A stretch of DNA of 64,000 bases from Candidatus Chlorohelix allophototropha (lineage in GTDB: Bacteria; Chloroflexota; Chloroflexia; Chloroheliales; Chloroheliaceae), in assembly GCF_030389965.1 (NCBI RefSeq), contig NZ_CP128400.1, positions 682,001 through 746,000 on the forward strand. Direction: 5' to 3'. The notes under the pieces were generated by a model that was not told where the DNA came from, did not search any database, and saw nothing but the letters and a program-made list of their open reading frames with translations. Of this stretch, positions 12,017 to 13,692 are shown piece after piece; the first letter of the stretch is position 1; each line of letters opens with the position of its first letter. The translations under genes were made by a program, and so were the position numbers.

Positions 12017-12883
12017 ATGGGAAATAATAATCAGATCGATTATGCTTTCAAGGTTAAGGCGGGCGAGAAAATCAAGTTACATGAATACGACCCGAATTTT
12101 ACCTCCGGTTTGAAAAAGGAAGATGCCGCTGCCCATTTCGCCAAATATAGCGCAGAACTGGAAGAGCTTCAGGAATTATTGATTGCCAGCGGTTCGCATA
12201 GTGTGTTGGTAGTTTTACAAGGCATGGATACCAGTGGTAAGGATGGCACTATACGCCATGTTATGAGTACCTTGAATCCGCAAGGCTGCCGCGTGACCAG
12301 TTTTAAAGTGCCTACCGCTAATGAGCAGGCACATGATTTTCTGTGGCGAATTCATCTGGAAACTCCACAAAAAGGCGTAATTGGGATTTTCAATCGCAGC
12401 CATTACGAAGATGTGTTGGTAGTGCCGGTGCATGGGCTTAAGCCTGAAGAAGATGTTGAAAGATATTACGACCACATCAACAATTTCGAGCGATTACTTG
12501 CCGATTCTGGTACGATAATTCTTAAATTCTTCCTGCATATTTCAAAGAAAGAACAACTGGCGCGTCTTAAAGAACGTGAATTGAATCCTTCAAAAAGATG
12601 GAAAATGTCGGTAGCGGATTACAAAGAGCGCGAGTTATGGGACACGTACCAACGCTATTATGGAGAAGCCTTGAGCCGTTGTAGTACCAGTCATGCCCCT
12701 TGGTGGATTGTACCTGCTGATGCCAAGTGGTATCGGAACTTAGCAGTTGCCGAAACATTGGTGGAACATTTGAGACCGTATCGCGACAAATGGAAGAAAG
12801 CTCTGGACGAACGTGGGCAGGCTGCTATAAAGGAATTGCAAGCGGCACGCGCGAGAGGCGAGATTAATAATAACCATTCTTGA
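12017..12883 (+). CDS. ppk2: Polyphosphate kinase 2 family protein
   Basis: The protein is 288 aa, the normal size for single-domain PPK2. Walker A GMDTSGKDG is at about 69-77 and the Walker B/lid-type segment FNRSHYEDVL at 125-134. PPK2 enzymes transfer phosphate between polyphosphate and nucleotides, mostly making ADP/ATP or GTP from polyphosphate. The subclass (NDP- or NMP-phosphorylating) cannot be settled by eye. It is a cytoplasmic protein and stands alone, 93 bp before the disulfide oxidoreductase gene. Confidence 0.93.
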   Translation: MGNNNQIDYAFKVKAGEKIKLHEYDPNFTSGLKKEDAAAHFAKYSAELEELQELLIASGSHSVLVVLQGMDTSGKDGTIRHVMSTLNPQGCRVTSFKVPTANEQAHDFLWRIHLETPQKGVIGIFNRSHYEDVLVVPVHGLKPEEDVERYYDHINNFERLLADSGTIILKFFLHISKKEQLARLKERELNPSKRWKMSVADYKERELWDTYQRYYGEALSRCSTSHAPWWIVPADAKWYRNLAVAETLVEHLRPYRDKWKKALDERGQAAIKELQAARARGEINNNHS

Positions 12884-12975
12884 AATTTAAGGATTTGCTT
12901 GCGATATAGCCTTTCCTGCCTTATTATTAGTCGGATAATATAAACCTTACATATACAAGAAAGGTCTCATATAAG

Positions 12976-13692
12976 ATGAAGCTTATATCAGAAGAGAATC
13001 GGGCTTTTCTTACAAAACGCTTTTCCGAAGAGCTAATAGACCCGGTGAATATAGAGCTTTACACGCTTGGGAAGTACCATACCTCGGATGAGGAAGTTAC
13101 CAATGATGGCGAAGAATTCGAGGTAGTAGAAGAGGAAGCCTGTCGGCTAACTCGCCAATTATTAGCCGAGCTTTCTGATGTGTCCGAAGGAAAAATACAA
13201 TTAGTAATGCATGATATGGAAACTCCTGAAGGTGTCGCAACCGCTAATCTGGAAGGAATTAATCCGGGTATGTTACCTGCGCTGGCTTATAAAGCCACCA
13301 GCCTCAAGGGTAAGTCGCATTATTATGGGCTGCCAAGCGGCTACGAGTTTGGCACAATGATTGATAATCTAATATCGCTATCCAGTGGAAAAGCCGAGTT
13401 GAGCCAGAAGGCACAGGAACAGCTACAGCACATGAATAAATCTGTTTCTTTGCTGGTTTTCGTAACCCCTACCTGACCGCATTGCCCCCCCGTCGCCAGT
13501 ATGGCGCATCAGATGGCAATGTTGAATCCCCATTTTAAGGCGGAAGTGGTCGAAGCTAACGAATTTATGGAATTTTCGCAGCAATACTATGTTTTTGGCG
13601 TACCAAAAACCGTAGTAAACAATCTGCTTCAATTTGAGGGGTCTGTACCCGAATCGGCTTTTATGAATTATATAGTGCAAGCCACTAGCTGA
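12976..13692 (+). CDS. Probable selenoprotein: two-domain protein disulfide oxidoreductase (U-x-x-C)
   Basis: The frame from 12976 meets TGA at 13474-13476 and then continues without another stop or frameshift to TGA at 13690-13692, giving 238 residues. The flanking protein reads VFVTPT-U-PHCPP, placing the TGA exactly at the first redox Cys of a glutaredoxin-like CxxC site (residue 167; Cys170 kept). Beyond it come the cis-Pro loop VFGVPKTVVN and a complete C-terminal thioredoxin fold. The N-terminal half resembles the first domain of archaeal-type PDO/GlrX proteins, including LPSGYEFGTMI, but lacks its own CxxC. A hairpin just after the TGA resembles a bacterial SECIS. It would reduce or exchange disulfides in the cytoplasm. 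The alternative is a nonsense mutation. AAGAAAGG supports the start. Confidence 0.75.
13479..13522 (+). promoter_or_regulatory. Candidate bacterial SECIS element
   Basis: The outer stem CATTGCC (13480-13486) pairs with GGCAATG (13515-13521), and a flanking G-U pair extends it. An apical stem CGCC/GGCG carries the loop AGUAU at 13498-13502. A U (13493) is bulged if G13492 pairs with C13507. The loop begins 21 nt after the TGA. A G in the loop, a bulged U in the apical stem and this distance match what is known for bacterial selenocysteine insertion elements. Confidence 0.6.

Follow-up and report, generated by a model that had tools for sequence, protein, structure and literature searches.

The N-terminal domain of AhpF comprises two thioredoxin folds, with the redox pair kept only in the second, and in the SECIS hairpin of E. 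coli fdhF an A-G-G/U loop caps a short stem, beneath which lies a bulged U. The Sec form of the family treated here has been on record since 2006 under the name 'homolog of AhpF N-terminal domain' (Grx-like domain protein; PMC1794560), and TIGR02187 ('PDO_seleno_TRX') is listed as a UxxC selenoprotein family, with ABB15282.1 as the example (PMC13188914; see also PMC9312934). The published constraints on bacterial SECIS elements (bSECIS) are a loop of 3-9 nt, an upper stem of 4-16 bp, a distance of 16-37 nt from the UGA and an MFE of -7.5 or lower, together with a loop rule that demands a G in the first two loop positions, within an N1-G-[G/U]-N-N2 loop (PMC13188914). Since the Sec form of TIGR02187 is already listed, the Chlorohelix protein disulfide oxidoreductase (PDO) described here is not a new kind of selenoprotein. 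What is new is the probable use of Sec in Chlorohelix, its replacement by Cys in four genomes of the same taxonomic family and the loss of the N-terminal CxxC in this lineage. The word 'seleno' is absent from the Chlorohelix genome paper (PMC10972752), and no report of Sec in Chlorohelix was found in the open-access literature, although one may exist elsewhere. This Chloroflexota phototroph, newly brought into culture and equipped with a type I reaction centre, very probably uses selenocysteine.

The window, the whole stretch of 64,000 nucleotides of Candidatus Chlorohelix allophototropha that was analysed, is part of a contig of 2,453,413 bases, one of five in a genome of 6,086,194 bases; the L227-S17 genome has been described as 2.96 Mb, 2.45 Mb, a 375 kb chromid and two plasmids (PMC10972752). 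A frame of 238 codons opening at ATG 12976 is broken by a single TGA at 13474-13476, after which 71 further codons lead to a stop at 13690-13692. The preliminary description had placed this TGA at the expected first Cys of a CxxC motif and had followed the same frame through VFGVPKTVVN to a normal stop. Both statements hold: the first Cys of the C-terminal CPxC of the PDO family aligns with the TGA, and the continuation is present in full, including the VFGVPKTVVN segment. With a probability of roughly 0.96, the gene is predicted to encode a TIGR02187-family PDO with selenocysteine, inserted at the UGA, as catalytic residue 167. This reading rests on a continuous, conserved protein, a TGA that dozens of genomes share at the redox position, selection on a hairpin and the presence of the complete Sec machinery. 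The features of the locus are as follows.

12957-12963, + strand: candidate Shine-Dalgarno-like stretch AAGAAAG upstream of ATG 12976 (sequence reading)
12976-13692, + strand: predicted complete Sec-containing PDO gene, 238 aa, Sec167 (UPHC), stop TGA 13690-13692 (translation with TGA = U)
13132-13143, + strand: degenerate N-terminal active site, E53-x-x-C56 instead of CxxC (alignment, 114 homologues)
13474-13476, + strand: predicted Sec-UGA codon for the nucleophilic redox residue that opens the C-terminal UxxC site (34 homologous loci with TGA here, 80 with TGC/TGT)
13480-13521, + strand: predicted bacterial SECIS stem-loop, outer stem CATTGCC 13480-13486 / GGCAATG 13515-13521 (fold)
13483-13485, + strand: Cys170, putative resolving Cys of UPHC (invariant column, 25-protein alignment)
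13492-13507, + strand: upper hairpin of the predicted SECIS, CGCCA/UGGCG with a GUA loop and U13493 at the bulge position (comparative alignment)
13603-13605, + strand: Pro210 of the cis-Pro motif, GVPK (invariant column, 25-protein alignment)

The NCBIfam model TIGR02187 matches residues 6-235 (model positions 2-208 of 209) with 183.6 bits (E 3e-54), missing the curated cut-off of 185 bits by 1.4 bits, and the Pfam model Thioredoxin_3 matches residues 161-234 with 53.1 bits, above its cut-off. AhpF models score far below cut-off for the 238-aa protein, which ends at the stop at 13692 with no fused TrxR-like flavin domain. The best solved relatives by sequence are archaeal and Aquifex PDOs, the CPYC of which aligns with UPHC. 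While a classical two-site PDO carries CxxC in both domains, this protein has UPHC in the C-terminal domain and E53xxC56 in the N-terminal domain. The expectation that automatic annotation would split the gene proved true in part: NCBIfam now has TIGR02187 as a Sec-aware model for this family, but where the cut-off of this model is applied strictly (183.6 against 185 bits), the gene would be mis-annotated as two fragments. The neighbouring genes (PPK2, NMO-like, NUDIX and DUF3160) provide no redox partner adjoining the PDO gene, and an operon-based assignment of function was dropped because they show no redox theme. The PPK2-type polyphosphate kinase gene (window 12017-12883) lies directly 5' of the selenoprotein gene.

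The genome contains the complete set of selA, selB, selC (tRNA-Sec) and selD for which the preliminary description had advised searching. The matches to selB (367.6 bits), selA (565.8 bits) and selD (360.6 bits) all lie above the curated cut-offs, as does that to tRNA-Sec (72.2 bits), which ARAGORN identifies as tRNA-SeC with anticodon TCA; its gene and selD are separated by about 2 kb of contig 1. With one internal TGA (...ALAACAGUASK...), selD (L018:1474-2544, contig 1) is itself a Sec gene (AACAGU) by its predicted translation; its best A-G-U-loop hairpin lies some 33 nt after the UGA, close to the limit of the permitted distance. Two matches to the selB model with identical scores of 193 bits, 11.2 kb apart on contig 1 (1636665-1650566), are probably duplicated EF-Tu genes. 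Two further genes carry in-frame TGA codons. One is ResA/TlpA-like (L149:790-1368, contig 2 about 362789-363367), with its TGA at WSVYUPSC followed by the strong hairpin GUCAGGA GUU UCCUGAC; its product, a lipoprotein-like, secreted thiol oxidoreductase of the ResA/TlpA type, is a probable second selenoprotein of Chlorohelix. The other, SelL-related and above the NF040769 cut-off (L150:972-1595, contig 1 about 1122271-1122894), contains two TGAs forming UMPU and is a probable double-Sec (UxxU) selenoprotein. By eye, possible A-G-U-loop hairpins lie 3' of the TGA in both of these genes and in selD. Given that these other genes of the genome carry TGA as well, the TGA of the PDO gene is unlikely to be an isolated accident. 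No Sec formate dehydrogenase with an in-frame TGA, which might have been the main user of Sec, was found in the genome. Genome-wide recoding of TGA was ruled out, because TGA also serves as the terminal stop of the PDO gene and no Sec factor is missing.

When selenophosphate runs short, the Sec machinery can insert Cys by mistake, and Cys is functional at this site in relatives; the UGA could accordingly be read through with Cys or another residue instead of Sec, at least under selenium scarcity. However, SelD, SelA, SelB and tRNA-Sec are all encoded in the genome and SelD itself uses UGA, which makes this alternative very improbable compared with the insertion of Sec.

Within a phylum sample of 400 genomes, a homologue was detected in 118 and a single in-frame TGA in 54 of these, by our own tally of the listing. 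All 38 TGA-bearing genomes that are at least 90% complete contain selA, as do 230 of the 284 good-quality genomes that form the background, and the three TGA-bearing genomes that lack it have a completeness of 76-88%; the association is genuine, though modest, given how common selA is in the phylum. A second collection, from which an alignment-based scan gave 80 loci, added Sec forms from Acidobacteriota, a Bacillota MAG, Thermomicrobium, Ktedonobacterales and Dehalococcoidia, although Sec forms are under-sampled there because the search patterns were built with Cys. No relatives were confirmed in viral contigs or by a single-sequence scan of genome contigs. The combined set comprises 34 Sec and 80 Cys loci, including some near-copies (28 Sec and 77 Cys rows after removal of duplicates). 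In the loci read out, the TGA always encodes the first residue of a UP[HY]C motif; all 34 Sec loci have it at the redox position, and every homologue read out has either Cys or Sec there, the comparison that the preliminary description had proposed. The nearest Sec homologues share about 40% identity with the Chlorohelix PDO.

On a quick maximum-likelihood tree, the Sec/Cys label needs about ten changes, at least six of them on well supported branches, while shuffled labels need about 25; the predicted Sec-PDO is widespread in the phylum, with repeated exchange between Sec and Cys. Chlorohelix groups with four members of its family (support 96), all of which have Cys (CSFC, CGYC, CGFC) and nonetheless contain selA, so that within the order the TGA is unique to one genome. 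The branch order inside this clade is without support, and Sec in Chlorohelix would be either kept or regained.

The stem-loop given in the preliminary description (CATTGCC/GGCAATG and CGCC/GGCG, with a bulged U and a loop G, 21 nt from the TGA) is present in the sequence and, as it had proposed, fits the bacterial SECIS rules. The apical stem is formed by CGCC 13494-13497 and GGCG 13503-13506 around the loop AGTAT 13498-13502, with T13493 at the bulge position, in agreement with the bSECIS constraints: the loop is AGUAU, the upper stem has 4 bp (CGCC/GGCG; 5 with A-U), the distance from the UGA is 21 nt and the MFE over 13474-13524 is -17.8 kcal/mol (z -1.98 versus shuffles). The outer stem (13480-13486/13515-13521) is real in this sequence and is not clearly conserved among relatives. 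On its own, the hairpin is only mildly above chance and constitutes weak evidence: the 5-bp hairpin with its loop G is made by 9% of synonymous recodings, and an equally good fold by 6.7%. Rfam returned no match at gathering level, the weak SECIS_3 match scoring 14.9 bits against a gathering threshold of 63 (E 2.5).

It is the comparison across homologues, rather than the single fold, that makes the hairpin convincing. The five pairs from +18/+30 to +22/+26 all form in 33 of 34 Sec loci, in a hairpin with an A-G-K-N-U loop, against seven of the 80 Cys loci. All 34 Sec loci have G at loop base +23; the one Sec locus that lacks the five pairs (L091) has, by eye, a hairpin GUGUGC/GCACAC in a shifted register. 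Among 21 aligned Sec sequences, hairpin columns 22-26 and 29-32 are invariant, while the pair +18/+30 (columns 21/33), in which both bases occupy third codon positions, occurs as GC (11), CG (5), AU (2), GU (2) and UG (1), with no failures. The covariation score of the whole structure exceeds those of all 500 shuffles and of all slid registers; the lower-stem pairs 17/36 and 18/35 are frequently broken. The codon containing the loop G is always AGG or AGT in Sec forms, whereas many codons are found in Cys forms. One genus (f4/g9) has both forms and offers a natural before-and-after experiment on the hairpin: across this region the Cys member (L039) reads GCT CGT CTC and its Sec sisters (L042, L044 and L048) read GCC AGG TTG, L039 having no SECIS hairpin, largely through synonymous codon differences. 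By this comparison of sequences, the hairpin is shown to be under selection at synonymous sites in the Sec forms only.

The same comparisons bear on the possibility that a nonsense mutation truncated an ordinary PDO and left the downstream 71 codons as a decaying remnant. UGA does stop ribosomes without SelB, and intact Cys versions exist in the four relatives of the same family. Against this, many families, and MAGs of Acidobacteriota and Bacillota as well, carry a TGA at the identical codon, no other lesion lies 3' of the TGA, the cis-Pro and C-terminal residues are conserved, and the hairpin is kept with the TGA and mostly missing from Cys forms. The pairing that the preliminary description had set against its own reading, a genome devoid of Sec machinery and homologues devoid of a TGA at this position, is excluded by the genome and homologue data. 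The shared position of the TGA in practice refutes truncation, which is still less probable than the insertion of Cys. The selenoprotein reading, already regarded as probable in the preliminary description, is instead borne out by the machinery, by Cys or Sec at the redox position of homologues and by the fitting stem-loop.

The full-length chain, modelled with AlphaFold2 from 25 window/locus proteins and with Cys substituted for Sec, gave a mean pLDDT of 93.9. The model aligns with PDOs over 214-216 residues with a Z of about 30, or 27.5 in the case of the Aeropyrum PDO, and with AhpF N-terminal domains with a Z of 24-26, while single thioredoxins score far lower, at about 11. Model and structure comparison both display the two tandem thioredoxin folds expected of TIGR02187. 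The UGA falls inside one of these folds, with strand 157-163 before it and the active-site helix 170-183 and remaining sheet after it; in the model, the second thioredoxin fold would be incomplete without the residues encoded 3' of the TGA. Two separate proteins, a 166-aa N-terminal product and a 63-aa product from ATG 13501, would both be valid ORFs by simple rules, but the split would fall inside a single thioredoxin fold of the AlphaFold2 model and Cys homologues are single chains, which leaves this alternative with hardly any probability. The N-terminal CxxC is retained in 103 of 114 homologues and is lost in all five Chloroheliales genomes.

Taken as a selenoprotein, the gene product would be a cytosolic PDO of two thioredoxin folds with Sec at residue 167, inserted at the UGA upon recognition by SelB of the hairpin, the loop of which begins 21 nt after this codon. 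From what is known of the family, Sec167 would act as the nucleophile attacking substrate disulfides or peroxide-derived species, and Cys170 would resolve the intermediate as a selenenylsulfide. A thioredoxin reductase, of which the genome has two copies above the model cut-off, may return the protein to its reduced form. Since the nucleophilic Cys of the N-terminal site is lost in this lineage, the N-terminal fold probably serves for docking or as a structural element, as it does in AhpF, with catalysis at the Sec site; by analogy with AhpF N-terminal domains, only the C-terminal site would turn over. We tentatively suggest, as a possibility that we regard as rather doubtful, a single-site selenoenzyme PDO in a phototroph with a type I reaction centre, with the N-terminal CxxC lost and Sec where the four nearest relatives have Cys, working as an AhpF-N-like selenol shuttle fed by a stand-alone thioredoxin reductase.

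Like the PDOs from P. furiosus and A. aeolicus (1a8l, 2ayt, 2ywm and 1j08), the modelled Chlorohelix protein consists of two thioredoxin folds in tandem, matched along its full length at a Z of about 30 and an rmsd of 1.5-1.8, but those enzymes have Cys at both sites, while it is predicted to have Sec C-terminally and lacks a complete N-terminal CxxC. It shares two thioredoxin folds with the N-terminal domain of AhpF (1zyn and 5h29; Z 24-26) and differs from AhpF in being stand-alone, without fusion to a flavin reductase, and in the predicted presence of Sec. Its hairpin resembles the SECIS of E. coli fdhF in the A-G-G/U loop, the short stem and the bulged U beneath, and differs by about one codon more of distance from the UGA and by a triloop closed by A-U. 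With TIGR02187 PDO_seleno_TRX it has in common the family, the fold, the UxxC site and a predicted bacterial SECIS just 3' of the UGA; it is set apart from this family by its score of 183.6 bits against the 185-bit cut-off, by its N-terminal ExxC and by an insertion before that site.
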